Of a stretch of 64,000 nt of DNA, positions 53,640 through 63,467 are shown one piece after another. Made by a program: the position numbers and the translations under genes. The stretch is from contig JAQCKF010000013.1 of the NCBI GenBank assembly GCA_027592275.1, forward strand, positions 1 through 64,000. Reading direction: 5' to 3'. This DNA is from Pseudomonadota bacterium. Lineage in GTDB: Bacteria; Pseudomonadota; Gammaproteobacteria; Pseudomonadales; Pseudohongiellaceae. The number at the start of each line of letters is the position of its first letter. Position 1 is the stretch's first letter. The notes under the pieces are model-generated. The model did not search any database. It saw nothing but the letters and a program-made list of their open reading frames with translations, and had not been told where the DNA came from.

Positions 53640-54728
53640 CTAACGGCGCGCGGACTTCACCAGAGCACCGCCACCGGACACGACTGCGCCGAACACATTG
53701 CCAGCGGAATCTACGGCCACGCCTTCAGGGTTTGAACCCGCTGGATAAGCCTCTACTGTTCCGTCGATAAAGTAATCCACAATGCCATCTAATAGGCTGC
53801 CCACGCGGATACCTGCATGCCATCCAGGATTCCTAGTGTCATCGAATTCCGATTCGGAATCCGCTACATAGATTATGTCGTCGTCACCTATGTAAATTCC
53901 ACTCGGTCTGCTGAAAGATTTGAATTCGCCGATATAGTTACCGACCAAATCAAATATCTTTAGACGATTATTACCCCTGTCACCCACGATTAATCGATTT
54001 CGAGAATCGATATCCAATGCGTGGGGCGTCTTCAACTTGCCAGCGTCAGATCCCCAGCCACCCCAGTATTTGAGTAGGTTGCCATCGCGATCAAACTTTA
54101 CGATTCTGGCTACCGTTGAAGCTGTAGCATCTGGATTCTGGCCACTGTGTCCATCGCCTACATAGATGTTGCCATCGGCATCTGTAACAACGTCACAGGG
54201 CGTTTCCAACAACGCATCTGTTCCATCGCCGGCCACACCGGGCTGCCCCAGCGTTAGTAACACTTCGCCCTCTGGACTTAGTTTGTAAACTACGTGCCCC
54301 ATGCCGGCAGTCGCTGGATTGTCCTCGCGCGGCCCCTGCCCATCCGTAACCCAGATATTGCCATCACGATCGACATGAAGACCATGAGGAAACAGCATCA
54401 AACCGCCACCTATCGAAGCGACAACACTGCCACTAGGATCAATCTTCAAGATGGGATCAACACTGGAGCCGGTACAACTATTTGTCCCGCAGCGATCGAT
54501 TGCCCACAGATGTCTACCATCTGGATCCATATCCACCCCTGCGGTGGACCCCCATTCGCGGCCATCGGGTAATATTGCCCAGTTGTCCACAGTGGAAAAA
54601 GGGTTCGGCCTTTTATTGATTGGCTCGAGCTGAGCGAATACGGTACCGCTAATAAAAATAGCGAACATACAGACAAGAAGAAAAACAGCGAGAGATATTT
54701 GTTTACCAGCATTAGAAACAGTGTTCAT
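53640..54728 (-). CDS. secreted NHL-repeat protein, peptidyl-alpha-hydroxyglycine amidating lyase (PAL)-like
   Basis: Signal peptide from MNTVSNAGKQISLAVFLLVCMFAIFISGTVFAQ; FPHGLHVDRDGNIWVTD, TPCDVVTDADGNIYVGDGH, TPHALDIDSRNRLIVGDRGNNRLKIF. Confidence 0.82.
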   Translation of the reverse strand: MNTVSNAGKQISLAVFLLVCMFAIFISGTVFAQLEPINKRPNPFSTVDNWAILPDGREWGSTAGVDMDPDGRHLWAIDRCGTNSCTGSSVDPILKIDPSGSVVASIGGGLMLFPHGLHVDRDGNIWVTDGQGPREDNPATAGMGHVVYKLSPEGEVLLTLGQPGVAGDGTDALLETPCDVVTDADGNIYVGDGHSGQNPDATASTVARIVKFDRDGNLLKYWGGWGSDAGKLKTPHALDIDSRNRLIVGDRGNNRLKIFDLVGNYIGEFKSFSRPSGIYIGDDDIIYVADSESEFDDTRNPGWHAGIRVGSLLDGIVDYFIDGTVEAYPAGSNPEGVAVDSAGNVFGAVVSGGGALVKSARR

Positions 54729-55122
54729 AATTAACTCTCCCTGCTGAGAAGTCCTCAGCAAAATTTATTCGCTCTAGCCCTCTTAGAACCGTACTGCTCG
54801 AAGCACTGGCGACTCTAATTCCTCAAAACAGATTAAATCAGCAAACTGGCGAATGCAATGAGCCACATCAAGGACTCACAAGACTATCGATCACACATGC
54901 TCGCGATGTTCGGCGCCCTTGCCGAGCGTGATAAATCGCCTTCAGCGACTCACTTACAGAGATGTTGTATTGGATGAGATCGAACCTCTGGGTAGCGAAA
55001 ACAAAGTTAATAGGACGCAACACCCGCCGAAGAATCCGGCGAGTTATTAGAGACGAAATGAAGGGAAAACTCTCGAAAGAAGCAAGAAATCATACACTTC
55101 CTGCCAGTTAGACGAAAAACTA

Positions 55123-56109
55123 CTAGCGCGTTACCGTAACGTTGACATTCTGGTAGGTAAACAGTGAGCCGTCGCTAGCGATACCACGCAACACATACTC
55201 TCCCGGTTCATCGAAGACCACTTCCGCTGACCAGCGACCATCTTCAGGCGGCTGAGGGATTCCAAATGGTGGCGCCCAGGGCGAGTTCGCATACATTCGG
55301 GTATCGGTATAGGTCTTAAACTGTGTTGGTTCGAAACTCGCCTTCGCGGCAGGACCTCGGTATACCGTCCACGAGAAACGCAAACCGGGACCACTAATGG
55401 CAACAATGGAAGATGGCGGCCGATACAATTGATCCATACTCGAACTGCTAGGTTGATCGCGGCGCGCCGGTAAATTGTCCGGATCGCTCGCCCTTACCGC
55501 CAGCCTAAGTGGCTCTCCAACACGTGCTGAGCGAAAACTTTCTCCCTCTACACGCAATTCGGGGGGAATATTCGTTCTCAACGAATCGCTAAGACTGCCG
55601 TAGTTACCACCCACCTCAGTAGAGATAACCTGAGGGTCGATTTGATAGTCGGATTTTAGCGTACCGTATGCGCGATTAGTCTGACCCTCAGTCCTTAACG
55701 TCCATACTAGTTCCTTCTCAGCAAAATCTGCAGGCACATCGATTGTGAACAGGAAGGGGTTGCGTCTGGGATAGAAATGAGTTGGTTGCCCCATGTCCGC
55801 TGTAGAAAAATCAAAACCATCCAGACTTAAATCGTCTAACTCGCCCGGCTCAACTTCGGAAAAATAATTCTCTGCGCCAATGGAAATATCAAATTGCTGT
55901 TCCCAGTTGGAATTCATGTAACCAAAGAACAACTTGAATGTCCCGTCCTCGTTTGGCCACCACCCTTCAAATGCAGGCGAGGTAATCTGACCACGTAGCT
56001 GCATGTATCGAGTCTGGGCATTGACCGGCTGAGCCACTAACAAAGGAATAAGCGAGGCGACGAGCAGTAAACTACCAAGCTTTGAAAATTTAAGATTTAC
56101 TAACCTCAT
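55123..56109 (-). CDS. secreted protein with GQPTHFYPRR motif and Ig-like C-terminus, unknown function
   Basis: Signal peptide; FEGWWPNEDGTFKLFFGYMNSNWEQQFDISIG...MGQPTHFYPRRNPFLFTIDVP; start next to the upstream stop codon (alternative GTG at 56112). Confidence 0.75.
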   Translation of the reverse strand: MRLVNLKFSKLGSLLLVASLIPLLVAQPVNAQTRYMQLRGQITSPAFEGWWPNEDGTFKLFFGYMNSNWEQQFDISIGAENYFSEVEPGELDDLSLDGFDFSTADMGQPTHFYPRRNPFLFTIDVPADFAEKELVWTLRTEGQTNRAYGTLKSDYQIDPQVISTEVGGNYGSLSDSLRTNIPPELRVEGESFRSARVGEPLRLAVRASDPDNLPARRDQPSSSSMDQLYRPPSSIVAISGPGLRFSWTVYRGPAAKASFEPTQFKTYTDTRMYANSPWAPPFGIPQPPEDGRWSAEVVFDEPGEYVLRGIASDGSLFTYQNVNVTVTR

Positions 56110-56111
56110 CA

Positions 56112-57578
56112 CTAATCATTCCCTTGTGCTAACGATGATTCCATAGACTCGGGTGCCCAACACATGGGACAGCCAACATCGTAGTCGTTTCGATCTTTCA
56201 TATTAGCTCGTCTGGTCGCCATCTCTTCTTGAAACTGCTCTTCGGTAAGCGACACGGAGTAACCCAGATCGATAAACATATTTGATACCGAACGACGTCC
56301 GCCGCCAGCCCAGTTTCGAGCATCAGCCAGATTAGGGTTCGCCCTAGTGGTATCGAGGAAGCCTATAGTGTGCAATATGGTACCTTTAGGAAGAAGTGGC
56401 GCCGCATCATCTTCATAGACATACTGCTTCACCCAGTTGTGATCATAACCAACACAGTTCAGCGTAAATTGGTTGTGACCCCAGATAGCTTCCATGCACA
56501 TCCGCACACCTGGTGCATGAAGGTGCGGCTCGAACGCGATAATTTTAGTGTGTTCTTGCAGAACCACATAGTTATGGAATTCCTGATTCGCCTCATTTGG
56601 CACTACATCGATATCGATACCATTACCTGTTCGTGGACCGCGGCGACTGTATTGAGGTTTGTAGCCAACTGGAAAGAACTTGATACCGAATTCAACGTAG
56701 GCTGAAGTTTCCCGTCCATTGGAATGCATATGAGTCGCTTCAAGGTGCAATGCGGAGTTCGCCGGAAGCAAGCGCCCAGCCTTCTCGGGAAAAATATCTG
56801 CATTGCGACCGACCTCATGGATAGGCCAGCTAACCACATTATCCACTACCTCAGAGCCGTCTTCGTTGAGAGAACCGCTTGTATAGGTCATATGGTGGAC
56901 GATATAACGACCACCAACCGTACCGGTAACCCCGTCGGCTGGAATATCATTGATCTCGCGAACCTGAATCGCTGAAACATAGCGATCTTCAGTAAGACCA
57001 GTAGGCACTAAACCAAGATCGCCCCACCAGTCTGGACCTGCAGCCGGGCGAGAGAAGTCATTCGAGCGCAAGATCAAATCTGGCTCGCCTATTGCCCATT
57101 CGTTGCCACTATCAAATTCTAAAAGAGGAGGTTCATTTTCTGGATTACCCCGAGGAGCGCCGTTATCGGCCCAAGCCTGAATCATCGCTAACTCTTTATC
57201 TGACAGTGAGTAGTCGTCTTTCATGCGAGTTATGCCAATGTGTTTTTCCAAGAAATAAGGAGGCATTGCTCCCATGCGATCACGTATTGCCGTGCGGTAC
57301 TTGATTACCGGAGCCCAGGGCCGCACTTCGTCGTAAGTCATCAGCACCATGGGCCCGCCACCACCGGGGCGATGACAATTTTGGCAGCTGCTCTGTAAGA
57401 TGGGTGCAATATGATCCGAGAACGTTACCGACTTGGGGTCGATACCAAAATCAGCAGAATCGTAGTAATGAGGCTGATGATTAGCCACGCTTGCATCATG
57501 GGCCTGCGCGGCGAGAGAAGATGAAAGAATTAGTGCGACTAGAGATGAAGCAAATGTAAGAAGGTGTCTGGCTGTCAT
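56112..57578 (-). CDS. secreted cytochrome c fused to PHM/DBH-like copper type II monooxygenase fold
   Basis: Signal peptide MTARHLLTFASSLVALILSSSLAAQAHD; CQNCH heme motif; YIVHHMTY, LHLEATHMHSNG, AFEPHLHAPGVRM, C-terminal GCPMCW. Confidence 0.72.
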   Translation of the reverse strand: MTARHLLTFASSLVALILSSSLAAQAHDASVANHQPHYYDSADFGIDPKSVTFSDHIAPILQSSCQNCHRPGGGGPMVLMTYDEVRPWAPVIKYRTAIRDRMGAMPPYFLEKHIGITRMKDDYSLSDKELAMIQAWADNGAPRGNPENEPPLLEFDSGNEWAIGEPDLILRSNDFSRPAAGPDWWGDLGLVPTGLTEDRYVSAIQVREINDIPADGVTGTVGGRYIVHHMTYTSGSLNEDGSEVVDNVVSWPIHEVGRNADIFPEKAGRLLPANSALHLEATHMHSNGRETSAYVEFGIKFFPVGYKPQYSRRGPRTGNGIDIDVVPNEANQEFHNYVVLQEHTKIIAFEPHLHAPGVRMCMEAIWGHNQFTLNCVGYDHNWVKQYVYEDDAAPLLPKGTILHTIGFLDTTRANPNLADARNWAGGGRRSVSNMFIDLGYSVSLTEEQFQEEMATRRANMKDRNDYDVGCPMCWAPESMESSLAQGND

Positions 57579-57764: not shown

Positions 57765-59417
57765 TCAATACTCGGGGAGCGCAAACGCTGTCAGGGTCGT
57801 TCCGGAGGGAATTAGTACATATTGTCGGCCATCGAGCATATGGGTCATGGCCCCGGCTCCCCATATACGCGAGCCAGTCTGATAGTGCCAAAGGTTCTCT
57901 CCGTTTACCGCGTCGAAGGCCATGAAGTTGCCCTCGTGATCACCAGCAAATACCAGCCCCGCAGCCGTGCTCAATACGCCGCCAAAGGTCGGCGATGGAT
58001 AGGTGAATTCCCAGCGTAATTCGCCGGTCTGCACATCGAGAGCGCGCAGCGCACCGGAGCCTATCTCAGGATCAATGAACACGACACCGCCGAAGGAGGC
58101 CTGCCCAGGCACTAGATTGGGCTCTTCCGGCACTATGGTGGCACAGGTTTCACGCGCCGTGAGGTAAAACAGACCAAGCTCCGGGTAGAACGAAGGTGGC
58201 ATGAAATTCGTGCTGCCCCAAGGATCGGGCAAACAACCCTTACTCCCATCATTCAATACTATCGGCCTGCCATCTTCCCCTATTTCCCGCGCCCAAGTGG
58301 TTGCGGTAAAGGGTTTGCCTAGCAAAAATTCACCGGACACCCTATCAAGCACATAGAAGAAGCCATTGCGATTACCGACCATTACCACCTTGCGCGGCTC
58401 ACCCTGCCACTCAATATCCGCCAATACCGGCATATGATTTGAGTCCCAATCGTTCAAATCATGAGGCGTGAACTGGTAGTGCCATTTCAGCTCTCCGGTA
58501 TCCGCATCTAGCGCTACCAAGGAATTCGAGTACAGATTGTCTCCCGGCCTGCTGTCGCCGTAGTAATCTGGGTTGGGATTGCCCACGCCCCAGTAAATTA
58601 GGTTTAGCTCGGGATCATAACTACCGTTCATCCAGGTGCCACCGCCACCCTTCGCCAGAATCTCTGGATCATCCGGCCAAGTCTCACTGCCGGGTTCACC
58701 CGGCCCTGGTATTGTATTAAAGCGCCACAGTCGTTCGCCCGTAGCGGGGTCATAGGCATCAATAAAGCCCCGAGTCGCGTACTCGCCACCAGATACGCCA
58801 GTGATTACCATGCCATCGATGACCAATGGAGCACCGGTTGAGGCATAACCTACTCGGTAGTCGGCTAACTCAACATCCCAAAGGATGTCGCCGTTGCGCC
58901 TATCAAACGCTAGCAGATGTGCGTCCAACGTCACCATGAACAGACTATTGCCAAGCATCCCGAAGCCTCTGTTAACCGGCGCACTAGCACCATAGGTCAG
59001 ATCATCTGGAAGATTGCGTCGATACTGCCAGAAACGGCGACCTGTTTTTGCATCGATAGCCCAGGCGTAGTTATTTGACCCCGTTACATAGAGCACACCA
59101 TCGTCGATGAGAGGTGTCGTTTCGAAACCTCGACCTCGAGTCGTGGTGCCTGTCTGAAAGGTCCAGACCGGTCGCAGCGAAGCGACGTTCTCTGTATTTA
59201 TTTGCGTTAACGGGCTATGTCGTTTGCCGCTGTAATCACCGGAATAGGTCAGCCACCGAGATGGGTCCGAAAAGCCCTGTAGGATATCTCCGTAATCGGG
59301 CCCAGAATCGTCTTGTGCCAGCGCAGCCAAGGCAGGAAAAAGTAGGCCGAACGCCACAAACGATGAATTTTTGACCATTCTTCTAAGCATTTGATGACAG
59401 CTTGGGATTTGATTCAT
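57765..59417 (-). CDS. PQQ-dependent (quinoprotein) dehydrogenase
   Basis: PQQ propeller repeats: WLTYSGDYSGKRHSPLTQINTENVASLRPVWTFQTG, VVFIDPEIGSGALRALDVQTGELRWEF. Confidence 0.94.
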   Translation of the reverse strand: MNQIPSCHQMLRRMVKNSSFVAFGLLFPALAALAQDDSGPDYGDILQGFSDPSRWLTYSGDYSGKRHSPLTQINTENVASLRPVWTFQTGTTTRGRGFETTPLIDDGVLYVTGSNNYAWAIDAKTGRRFWQYRRNLPDDLTYGASAPVNRGFGMLGNSLFMVTLDAHLLAFDRRNGDILWDVELADYRVGYASTGAPLVIDGMVITGVSGGEYATRGFIDAYDPATGERLWRFNTIPGPGEPGSETWPDDPEILAKGGGGTWMNGSYDPELNLIYWGVGNPNPDYYGDSRPGDNLYSNSLVALDADTGELKWHYQFTPHDLNDWDSNHMPVLADIEWQGEPRKVVMVGNRNGFFYVLDRVSGEFLLGKPFTATTWAREIGEDGRPIVLNDGSKGCLPDPWGSTNFMPPSFYPELGLFYLTARETCATIVPEEPNLVPGQASFGGVVFIDPEIGSGALRALDVQTGELRWEFTYPSPTFGGVLSTAAGLVFAGDHEGNFMAFDAVNGENLWHYQTGSRIWGAGAMTHMLDGRQYVLIPSGTTLTAFALPEY

Positions 59418-59467: not shown

Positions 59468-60280
59468 TCAGCGCTGCTGATGAAGGTAGCTTAAAATATC
59501 ATCGAGCTGAGAATCACTCAGTTGCTCCTCAGTAAAAGCAGGCATTAGTGAGTCGATGTCTCGATCTTGAGAGAGCAGATCAGATTTTACGAAGCCTCGC
59601 AGCCTCTGATTGCTATCTAATATCTGAATCGAGAATGCATCCTCACCTTTAATGATGCCACTCACATTAGGGGCACTACTGGTACTCAGAATGATTGGTT
59701 TATAGCCGCGAGAGATACTCGAACTCGGTTCGCGTACTGAACTGCGAAGTGCCGCCTGTGAGCGCCTGAGGGTGATAAGCTCTAGATTCGGCCCCAAACT
59801 CCCGCCGCTAATGCCAGCGCGATGACATTCGCTGCAATGGGCGGTAAACAGGCGAGCGCCACTATTTTCATCTCCTGTAAATTCTTCAATGGACCCAGTA
59901 ACCGCTACGCTGCGTAGATAGCTGACCAACATCCAAATTTCAGTATCCGGGTAGTTATGGGGCGGCATAATGCTGCCAGGCACACCCGCTTGTATGCGCG
60001 TGAATACTCGATCCTCGCTCATTCCCGGCTGCGTCCACATCAGTGTCAAGTCTGGCGCATCGATACTGCTTAGTCCCTTTGCATCTGCTCCATGGCAGGT
60101 TGCGCACTGTCCACGAAAAATCACGCCACCTGCTTGGGCAGCTCTAGGGTCAGAAGCTAGGGGATTGGTTTGTTGTGCAGAAGCGGTCGATGCAATCAAG
60201 AATGCGGCGAAAGCCGCAAAGAGCACGAACGGCTTCAGCGGAGCTATTCGGCATTGATAGAAAATTGATTTTGTAGTCAT
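59468..60280 (-). CDS. secreted c-type cytochrome (two CxxCH)
   Basis: FRGQCATCHGADAKG and TAHCSECHRAGISGG; N-terminal signal. Confidence 0.93.
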   Translation of the reverse strand: MTTKSIFYQCRIAPLKPFVLFAAFAAFLIASTASAQQTNPLASDPRAAQAGGVIFRGQCATCHGADAKGLSSIDAPDLTLMWTQPGMSEDRVFTRIQAGVPGSIMPPHNYPDTEIWMLVSYLRSVAVTGSIEEFTGDENSGARLFTAHCSECHRAGISGGSLGPNLELITLRRSQAALRSSVREPSSSISRGYKPIILSTSSAPNVSGIIKGEDAFSIQILDSNQRLRGFVKSDLLSQDRDIDSLMPAFTEEQLSDSQLDDILSYLHQQR

Positions 60281-60458: not shown

Positions 60459-60920
60459 ATGGGTAATAACAACGAAAAACAGAAGAAAAATTCAACCCTA
60501 CAAATTGTAACCTCGGCCTGTGCCGCACTCGCGCTAGGCTGGTTAGTACTTGGTACACAGGCCAACTTAACGACTGCACAACAGAGTAATTTCATGGGCG
60601 GATCGCCCAGCGTCGAAGACAGCGATGCAATAAGCACCCTTAGATTGGTCTTTCCGGCTGGAGTGCGCTCCAACTGGCATAGTCATTCTTGGGGCCAACT
60701 GTTAATGGTTGAGGAAGGCCGCGGCCTGACGCAAGATCGTGGCGGCCCATTACTTGAGATGCATCCGGGCGAACCGTGGTGGACACCATCCGGACGAGAA
60801 CACTGGCACGGCGCGCACCCTGACGAAGACGTGTTGCAACTAACAATCTACGAAGGCGAAGTGAATTGGTTGGAAGGTGTCGGTGATGCAGTCTATAACG
60901 CCACACCAAGACGCCCCTAA
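60459..60920 (+). CDS. cupin domain protein
   Basis: RSNWHSHSWGQLLMVEEGRGLTQDRGG...EMHPGEPWWTPSGREHWHGA; start MGNNNEKQ with aggagag upstream. Confidence 0.9.
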   Translation: MGNNNEKQKKNSTLQIVTSACAALALGWLVLGTQANLTTAQQSNFMGGSPSVEDSDAISTLRLVFPAGVRSNWHSHSWGQLLMVEEGRGLTQDRGGPLLEMHPGEPWWTPSGREHWHGAHPDEDVLQLTIYEGEVNWLEGVGDAVYNATPRRP

Positions 60921-61167: not shown

Positions 61168-62376
61168 ATGAAATATTCAACTCTAAGAGTCATCTCGATT
61201 GCCAGCGCCACTGTATTACTCGCCAGTTGTGGCAATGAAGAACCCGCTATGCCCCAACTCAGCTTCGAAGAGGCCCTGCAAGAGCAGCTGATCCAGGCTA
61301 AATCTGGCGATGTGATTACCATTCCTGCCGGCGTGCACGAAATCACCCGCAGCCTATCGTTAAATGTTTCCGGGGTGACTATTGCCGGAGCAGGCATCGA
61401 CACTGCCGTTCTTTCGTTTAAGAATCAGGTGCAGGGAGCTGAAGGGCTACTCATCAGCGCCAATGATTTCGTGATTCGCGACTTGGCCATCGAAGATACG
61501 ATAGGCGATGCGCTAAAAATCAACGAGAGCAACAATGTACAAATATTGCGAGTAAGAACTGAGTGGACAAACGGGCCATTGAGTACAAATGGCGCTTATG
61601 GGATCTATCCCGTGCAGTCGAACAATGTGCTGATCGATGAAGCTGTAGCCATCGGCGCCTCGGATGCCGGCATCTATGTCGGGCAGTCCTCGCAGATAAT
61701 CGTTCGCAATTCCCGCGCCGAATACAACGTTGCTGGCATAGAGATAGAAAATTCTACCTTCGCCGACGTTCACGACAACGTTACAACAAATAATACTGGC
61801 GGCATCCTTGTTTTCGATCTGCCCAATCTTCCAGTTCAGGGCGGTCGTAATACTCGCGTCTACCGCAATCAAATTTTCGCCAATAACACCGGCAACTTCG
61901 CACCCGAAGGCAATATAGTCGCAGGCGTACCGGCGGGTACCGGTCTAATGATCATGGCCAATGACAACATCGAGGTGTTCGAGAATAATTTCGAGGACAA
62001 CAACAGCGCGAACGTACTTATCGTCAGCTATTTGATCAATGAGATACCTATTACCGATCCGAATTACGACCCATTCCCAGAAGCTATCTATCTACATAAC
62101 AATCAATACACGGGAGGCGGAGAAAAACCCGACTCCGAACCGCTAGCATTATTGCAGGCCGCAACTGGCCAGCCATTACCTGATATTATTTGGGATGGCA
62201 TGCTCTCCGAAGGAAAGACCGCCGCCGACGCACTGTGTTTCTCTGAGGCCGCCGATACCAGCTTCGTCTCCCTCGATGCGAGTAACGGTTTCGCACAACC
62301 TGTCTTCGATGCAACTGCACACGATTGTGCTTTTCCTCGCCTCGCCGAGATATCCATGAGCTTAAGTAGTCAATGA
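61168..62376 (+). CDS. parallel beta-helix repeat lipoprotein
   Basis: Lipobox VLLASC; beta-helix repeats (NNVQILRVRTEW, NNVLIDEAVAIGASDAGIYVGQSSQIIVRNSRAEYNVAGIEIENS). Confidence 0.9.
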   Translation: MKYSTLRVISIASATVLLASCGNEEPAMPQLSFEEALQEQLIQAKSGDVITIPAGVHEITRSLSLNVSGVTIAGAGIDTAVLSFKNQVQGAEGLLISANDFVIRDLAIEDTIGDALKINESNNVQILRVRTEWTNGPLSTNGAYGIYPVQSNNVLIDEAVAIGASDAGIYVGQSSQIIVRNSRAEYNVAGIEIENSTFADVHDNVTTNNTGGILVFDLPNLPVQGGRNTRVYRNQIFANNTGNFAPEGNIVAGVPAGTGLMIMANDNIEVFENNFEDNNSANVLIVSYLINEIPITDPNYDPFPEAIYLHNNQYTGGGEKPDSEPLALLQAATGQPLPDIIWDGMLSEGKTAADALCFSEAADTSFVSLDASNGFAQPVFDATAHDCAFPRLAEISMSLSSQ

Positions 62377-63467
62377 CAGACTGTCATTTGCGCTGGGCAG
62401 CCTTCAGCGCATGTCTGTTACTGCTCGTGGCCTGCTCGGAATCGCCGCCGGTCTTTCATGCTATTGAAAGACCGCTGCGTCTCTCCGATTGGCAGTTATT
62501 TGCTGTGGATGTAAACGAACTCGTCCCAAGTGAATCCAGCGTAGTCTTTCGACCCAACAATCCACTCTTCACCGATTACGCACACAAACTGCGAACGCTG
62601 TGGATACCGCAATCTCTGCAAGCGGATATTGTCAACAATGAGATTAACTATCCCGTGGGCAGCGTACTAAGCAAGACGTTCTACTATCCACGCTCCTCGA
62701 GCACGACACTCACCAAAGTTGCTGATAGCGGGCTTCAGAAAATAAACCTGAAGGACAATCAACTGATAGAGACTCGGCTTCTCGTGCGCAAGGTTGACGG
62801 CTGGGATGCCTTCGGCTATGTGTGGAACGATGAACAGAGCGAAGCCTTTCTGCGCATTGCCGGGGCCAGCAAGCAAGTCTCACTACTCGATCAAGAAAGC
62901 ACCCAGACAACGGACTTTACCTACTTCGTGCCGAACGAGAATCAATGTGCCGGCTGCCATACGACGGTACACCCCGACGGTGATATGCATCCACTTGGCG
63001 CGCTTTTCAGCCAACTTAATGTCGATGTGAGTACCGCTATCGCATCACCTCTCGAACAGATGGTACAGCGCGGCTGGCTAAATGATGAGCAGGTTTTTCC
63101 ACGCTCAGAATCTTGGCAAGACCTTTCTGCCTCCTTAGACGACCGCGCACTGGCCTATCTAAATATGCAGTGCGGGCATTGCCACAACCCAGAAGGTGCC
63201 GCCGATACTTCAGGACTCATCCTCGATAACTCGCAAACGCTCGGCATAAACCGCGGCGTGTGCAAACCGCCTGTCGCGGCGGGCGGAGGTGCTGGAGATC
63301 TGCGCTATGGAATCGTACCCGGGCAGCCCGAGGAATCGATTTTGCTGTATAGAATGCGCTCCGATAAACCCGATGAGATGATGCCGGAGCTAGGTAGGTC
63401 GCTGATTCACTACGAGGGCGTAGATCTCATTAGCCGCTGGATAGCAGGAATGCCCGGGGCGTGCTAA
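62373..63467 (+). CDS. SO2930-family-like diheme c-type cytochrome lipoprotein
   Basis: Lipobox LLVAC; NQCAGCHTTV and NMQCGHCHNPEGAADTSGL; ATGA overlap with beta-helix gene. Confidence 0.88.
   Translation: MTDCHLRWAAFSACLLLLVACSESPPVFHAIERPLRLSDWQLFAVDVNELVPSESSVVFRPNNPLFTDYAHKLRTLWIPQSLQADIVNNEINYPVGSVLSKTFYYPRSSSTTLTKVADSGLQKINLKDNQLIETRLLVRKVDGWDAFGYVWNDEQSEAFLRIAGASKQVSLLDQESTQTTDFTYFVPNENQCAGCHTTVHPDGDMHPLGALFSQLNVDVSTAIASPLEQMVQRGWLNDEQVFPRSESWQDLSASLDDRALAYLNMQCGHCHNPEGAADTSGLILDNSQTLGINRGVCKPPVAAGGGAGDLRYGIVPGQPEESILLYRMRSDKPDEMMPELGRSLIHYEGVDLISRWIAGMPGAC

Follow-up and report, generated by a model that had tools for sequence, protein, structure and literature searches.

The copper hydroxylases PHM (peptidylglycine α-hydroxylating monooxygenase) and DBH (dopamine β-hydroxylase) are known as ascorbate-dependent eukaryotic enzymes, and their class is characterized by two copper ions placed ~11 Å apart and by a hydroxylation dependent on O2 and a reductant. 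In animals, PHM is joined with the lyase PAL to form the bifunctional peptidylglycine α-amidating monooxygenase (PAM). The copper ligands of rat PHM are His242, His244 and Met314 at the CuM site and His107, His108 and His172 at the CuH site (PMC6123673). The current study is concerned with a 64,000-nucleotide stretch of gammaproteobacterial DNA, referred to as the window and situated on contig C30 (the genome amounts to 3.2 Mb, divided among 43 contigs), in which the gene at 56112-57578 encodes a PHM/DBH-like copper domain fused to a c-type heme domain. The original prediction had combined this protein with a PAL-like NHL-repeat protein into an exported amidating pair analogous to PAM. Based on the evidence obtained here, the 56112-57578 product is understood differently: with a probability of about 0.6, it is an exported, periplasmic dicopper monooxygenase of the PHM/DBH fold that has its own heme domain, and it probably serves in catabolism, oxidizing nutrients outside the inner membrane, rather than in the amidation of peptides.

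Results

The heme and copper motifs of the 56112-57578 protein, as well as the NHL gene located two genes downstream on the same strand, lie exactly where the original prediction had placed them. C65-QN-C68-H69 is followed by YIVHHMTY (H228, H229), LEATHMHSNG (H283) and FEPHLHAPG (H352, H354); signals for export of this protein and of its partner MID (see below) were judged by eye. An AlphaFold2 model (pLDDT 78.8, pTM 0.76), used as Foldseek query against the PDB, retrieved DBH and PHM structures exclusively at ranks 1-29 (E 2.8e-9 to 1.4e-4), with DBH best at E 2.8e-9, PHM at E 1.7e-7 and weaker, and the next matches unrelated and weaker still. The structural check proposed along with the original prediction therefore found the DBH/PHM fold rather than its absence. 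A sequence profile of the core run against the PDB identified DBH (4zel, E 1.2e-5) as the sole copper monooxygenase, with HH, H and HxH aligned.

The copper ligands are widely conserved. In an alignment of 37 relatives, H228, H229, H283, M434, C68, H69 and M105 are invariant, and C65, H352 and H354 are nearly so. The wider alignment of 112 relatives comprises 44 focal-type orthologs, 51 second-group sequences (together the 95 sequences counted as focal-type below) and 17 distant members. It retains the CuH ligands H228, H229 and H283 throughout, bar one ambiguous letter, the CuM ligands H352 and H354 in 110/112 sequences, and M434 in every sequence covering that position. All six ligands are present in 44/44 focal-type orthologs and, wherever covered, in the second group. 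The distant members keep HH, the third His and the Met; two of them (L080:4744-6480 and L085:8089-9774) have RxN in place of the HxH of CuM, with the other ligands kept. In distant paralogs with a PF03712 match, the counterpart of M434 is the Met of a DEM, and in one of these paralogs that Met falls inside the Pfam-matched stretch. The CuM methionine, described at the outset as not obvious, is thus M434 within NMFIDLGY. Considering the Foldseek ranks together with ligand conservation in the 112 relatives, the resemblance to PHM/DBH is far beyond chance.

The heme residues C65, C68, H69 and M105 are likewise invariant in the wider set, the exceptions being a single ambiguous letter and a single truncated row; M105 is the likely axial ligand. 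The N-terminal domain matches Pfam Cytochrome_CBB3 at E 9.3e-5, which is below the curated cut-off. No Pfam or NCBIfam model covers the PHM domain of the focal protein; Cu2_monooxygen and Cu2_monoox_C do not match it, yet do match 6/15 aligned family members, and the missing match is a limit of the models' reach, not a structural feature. Two further details may be recorded: a CPxC motif near the C-terminus (GCPMCWAP), kept in focal and second-group proteins and missing from most distant ones, and an extra His285 beside the CuH ligand in focal-type members.

The substrate pocket is where the protein departs from PHM. When pocket residues are equated by their offset from the copper ligands, the position of PHM Arg240, two residues before HxH, is Glu350 in 95/95 focal-type sequences, and positions +2 and +4 after M434 (PHM Asn316 and Tyr318) are near-invariant as Ile436 (rarely Leu) and Leu438 in the same set. 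In PHM, Arg240 binds the substrate carboxylate, with Asn316 and Tyr318 as its pocket partners. The replacements argue against peptidyl-glycine as the natural substrate; they do not speak against hydroxylation itself, that of the PHM type included.

The most constant companion of the PHM-like gene is the gene for MID, whose start (GTG 56112 or ATG 56109) overlaps the PHM-like stop codon. MID begins within or just after that codon, which suggests translational coupling. Among copies with enough sequence, collected from Gammaproteobacteria, Gemmatimonadota and Acidobacteriota and with some genomes entering twice via two collections, MID is directly downstream in 50/51 focal-type and 46/47 second-group cases (96/98 in total). 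The PHM and MID trees have matching main clades and deep branches, and both place three Gemmatimonadota modules beside the focal orthologs. Such pairing suggests that MID is a constant, or obligate, partner or subunit of the PHM-like protein. MID belongs to no Pfam or NCBIfam family, and the PDB offers no convincing match at the sequence level; its model, of limited confidence (pLDDT 68), displays Ig-like sandwiches for which Foldseek finds general Ig-fold proteins only. Assignment of MID to a known family was consequently rejected. Elsewhere, one PHM-like gene is followed by two tandem MID genes (L074:3430-7105; likewise at L142, L144, L146, L151, L158 and L172).

Five genes of the locus run in a single direction on the minus strand, and a cupin gene is on the plus strand. 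The features are:

59468-60280, minus strand: diheme cytochrome c, likely electron acceptor or donor for the cluster
57765-59417, minus strand: pyrroloquinoline quinone (PQQ)-type quinoprotein alcohol dehydrogenase, TIGR03075 above cut-off, also near TIGR04528 ("acido-empty-quinoprotein")
56112-57578, minus strand: PHM/DBH-like protein with N-terminal c-type heme domain, 488 aa, Sec-type leader, ATG at 57578
Ligands of the PHM-like protein: heme C65-C68-H69, likely axial M105; CuH H228, H229, H283; CuM H352, H354, M434
55123-56112, minus strand: MID, exported partner protein, 329 aa, two Ig-like sandwich domains in the model, unnamed family
54729-55122, no strand: MID-NHL gap, where TAXI-TRAP transporter genes sit in about half of congeners
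53640-54728, minus strand: PAL-like NHL beta-propeller, 362 aa, probably accessory; R79, H115, H236 and R251 kept
60459-60920, plus strand: divergent cupin protein, present at 26/27 orthologous loci

The named relatives are gammaproteobacterial metagenome-assembled genomes from marine and freshwater sources, several of them called Pseudohongiella and one placed in Pseudohongiellaceae by tree label. Across 27 orthologous loci, the cytochrome c and the PQQ-type dehydrogenase are always present (27/27 each), the cupin nearly always, and TAXI-TRAP and NHL genes at 14/27 each. The order cytochrome c, dehydrogenase, PHM-like protein, MID recurs at three Gemmatimonadota loci, again close to a cupin. 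The TRAP genes of the relatives were confirmed by NCBIfam TIGR02122 and TIGR02123; in the window they are missing, and the idea of a transporter relic in the gap was rejected as the search of 54729-55122 revealed none. A protein with a NosD-like beta-helix and a further, unknown one are encoded beside the cluster on the plus strand (61168-63467), as they are at 24/27 orthologous loci. A promoter and terminator scan of the region gave signals at most slightly above shuffled sequence and did not set the limits of an operon, and a search for plasmid relatives found none.

The NHL protein contains three Pfam NHL stretches (E 2.7e-21) and gives an unbroken alignment with rat PAL across 90-273 (E 2.4e-15). 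Animal TRIM-type NHL propellers match it as well as PAL does, or better, and they ranked first when the alignment to PAL was made via another NHL protein. The roles of PAL residues, and the equivalences outside the aligned stretch, follow the known PAL motifs. So assigned, R79, H115, H236 and R251 stand at PAL R533, H585, H690 and R706, H194 at the catalytic Tyr654, and E335 at the third zinc His (H786). Loss of the third His (NPEGVAVD) had been foreseen; replacement of the Tyr comes in addition. The H194/E335 pattern is common to nearly all NHL paralogs, and Glu335 is found in all orthologs. As judged by its residues, the NHL protein does not qualify as a PAL: the three zinc His are incomplete and the catalytic Tyr is replaced, with both Arg kept. 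In contrast to the focal NHL family, both the PAL-type Tyr and the third His are present in a distant NHL protein (L167:16238-17278) whose gene is ~6 kb away from a PHM-MID pair, and this protein appears to be a better candidate for a true lyase.

Distribution of the NHL gene points in the same direction. Within the genus (73 genomes), the PHM-like ortholog is present in 52, the NHL ortholog in 30, and both in 26 (Fisher p 0.019). The 26/52 PHM-like-bearing genomes in which NHL is missing include single-contig or near-complete assemblies, and the PHM-MID module thus does without NHL in half of the genomes. Wherever the contig permitted a check within the genus, the focal NHL ortholog was at this locus. 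In the four genomes with NHL only, the gene is at or near a contig end, in one case adjoined by MID and in two by TRAP genes, so NHL seems tied to the locus. As a rule it is not adjacent to other PHM-MID copies, nor is it inside the Gemmatimonadota module: of the nearest NHL relatives in four Gemmatimonadota genomes, none is within the PHM module; one is 12.5 kb off, on the opposite strand, and for the remaining three the part read held no PHM-like gene. The NHL protein is best explained as an add-on that some species have at this locus.

The family is large. In the 3.2 Mb genome alone, 19 matches correspond to 18 PHM-like genes (L074-L086), as two of the matches share a frame. From 118 genomes searched, 75 gave PHM-like matches, namely all 73 of the genus and 2/45 others in the order, and nearly every congener has many copies. 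PAL-like NHL genes are likewise numerous, here and in Gemmatimonadota and Acidobacteriota. Four paralogous PHM-MID pairs of the same genome stand alone among varied genes, and methylmalonyl-CoA mutase, FMO-like monooxygenase, TonB receptor, amidase, amidohydrolase and PETase-like hydrolase are encoded near such lone pairs. At L077:6338-13797, a PHM-MID pair adjoins amidohydrolase, amidase and PETase-like hydrolase, suggestive of amide or ester breakdown. Distant PHM-like paralogs of this genome have an N-terminal redoxin-like domain, followed by cytochrome and PHM parts.

Discussion

The proposed mechanism extends the PHM/DBH reaction to a periplasmic setting. In a presumably copper-loaded and active enzyme, CuM would bind and activate O2, with CuH and CuM each reduced by one electron. 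The electrons would come from the fused heme instead of ascorbate, and the heme would in turn receive them from carriers in the periplasm, for example the cytochrome of the cluster. As the family keeps its N-terminal cytochrome domain throughout, a role of the heme as electron source is a reasonable and plausible assumption. The substrate would be an organic compound, not primarily peptidyl-glycine, that is hydroxylated in the periplasm. At this locus, the neighboring PQQ-type dehydrogenase would oxidize the product further, and in many relatives the TAXI-TRAP transporter would take up the acidic product. The expansion of the family and its changing gene neighbors fit catabolic diversification better than a peptide-hormone-like processing. 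The unit is more general than first described: it consists of the heme-fused PHM/DBH-type protein and its Ig-like partner, coupled here to a quinoprotein dehydrogenase.

Several observations weigh against this interpretation. The model fits PHM to a moderate degree: normalized by PHM length, the best matches have a TM of 0.55-0.57. About half of the loci, the window included, are without TRAP genes. The gene pqqC is missing from the organism's own genome and present in just 4/13 tested genomes of the genus, and those without it include several near-complete congeners; the PQQ enzyme may therefore use scavenged PQQ or be cofactor-free. The two distant paralogs without HxH imply that not every family member need be active.

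Among the alternative explanations, a heme-copper protein devoted to electron transfer, sensing or storage, without monooxygenase activity and perhaps a subunit of the PQQ dehydrogenase system, would account for the constancy of quinoprotein and cytochrome at the focal locus and would sit well with the many paralogs and the Ig-like domains of the partner. It would leave unexplained why both full copper sites, inclusive of the catalytic Met, are kept in all focal-type relatives, and why most paralogs lack PQQ and cytochrome neighbors while retaining MID alone; we regard it as unlikely. Slightly less credence is given to a bacterial PAM, in which the PHM-like protein would hydroxylate C-terminal glycines (or N-acylglycines) and the NHL lyase would release the amide and glyoxylate. 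The PHM-type domain with its full set of copper ligands and its heme is the part of that proposal which stands, and the match of the NHL protein to rat PAL, the retention of the first two zinc His and both Arg, the fixed position of the NHL ortholog within the genus and the amidase adjoining one PHM-MID paralog pair can all be cited for it. The pair as a functional unit, however, is lowered by the neighborhood, co-occurrence and residue tests alike. The three-gene survey upheld PHM and MID as conserved together and did not uphold NHL, which is absent from half of the PHM-like-bearing genomes, usually not beside other PHM-MID copies and outside the Gemmatimonadota module. PHM Arg240 has become Glu, the PAL Tyr and third zinc His have become His and Glu in almost all NHL members, and generic TRIM propellers resemble the NHL protein no less than PAL does. 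Above neutral pH, amidation can proceed without PAL (PMC6529398), and loss of NHL alone is compatible with glycine chemistry. Least probable of all is a copper enzyme that uses O2 or peroxide on the PHM scaffold for a different type of reaction, as a peroxygenase, an oxidase or a polymer-cleaving enzyme: Glu350, Ile436 and Leu438, so unlike the PHM pocket, and the extra His285 could be accommodated by it, but positive evidence is lacking and no carbohydrate or polymer genes were seen in the focal cluster.

We give even odds to the broader proposal of a bacterial enzyme class not yet described: dicopper monooxygenases that are self-sufficient, with a fused c-type heme taking the place of ascorbate and an Ig-fold protein serving as obligate subunit. 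Together the two proteins would act as a portable unit of oxidation, much enlarged in number in Pseudohongiellaceae and also present in Gemmatimonadota and Acidobacteriota, for opening up organic matter outside the inner membrane. If true, a built-in heme donor in a large bacterial family with all copper ligands would represent another way to drive PHM/DBH chemistry, and the family would provide tractable enzymes for the old debate on how electrons pass from one copper to the other. Its growth in a marine lineage points to an unrecognized O2-dependent route for the use of dissolved organic matter, and the strict partnership with MID offers a concrete, testable handle. Automatic annotation misses the PHM-MID pair because the key domain of neither protein has a named family. 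A literature search, with coverage that leaves out most subscription journals, found no prior description of the system.

Compared to known systems, the focal protein shares with the PHM of PAM (1phm, 1sdw) the two-domain fold, as seen by Foldseek, and the order of the CuH (HH, H) and CuM (HxH, Met) ligands. It differs in the heme domain in front, the MID partner, Glu for Arg240 and Ile/Leu for Asn316/Tyr318, and it shows no Pfam match and only ~11% identity in the structural alignment. DBH (4zel) is the best structural match and the one copper monooxygenase that the profile search identified; it carries a DOMON domain in front, whereas the focal protein is bacterial and periplasmic, with a c-type cytochrome in that place. 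The NHL protein has in common with PAL (3fvz) the propeller and the four residues equated above, and it is set apart by Glu335 at the third zinc position, His194 for the Tyr and the lack of a constant link to the PHM-like gene. Unlike in PAM, the counterparts of PHM and PAL are here neither one polypeptide nor constantly linked, as the NHL gene at 14/27 loci exemplifies. Uncharacterized bacterial Cu2_monoox_C proteins with redoxin and cytochrome, represented in the same genome by the distant paralogs, combine cytochrome c and a PHM-type domain with the same ligands; they are distinguished from the focal protein by the redoxin-like N-terminal domain and, for the most part, by doing without MID.

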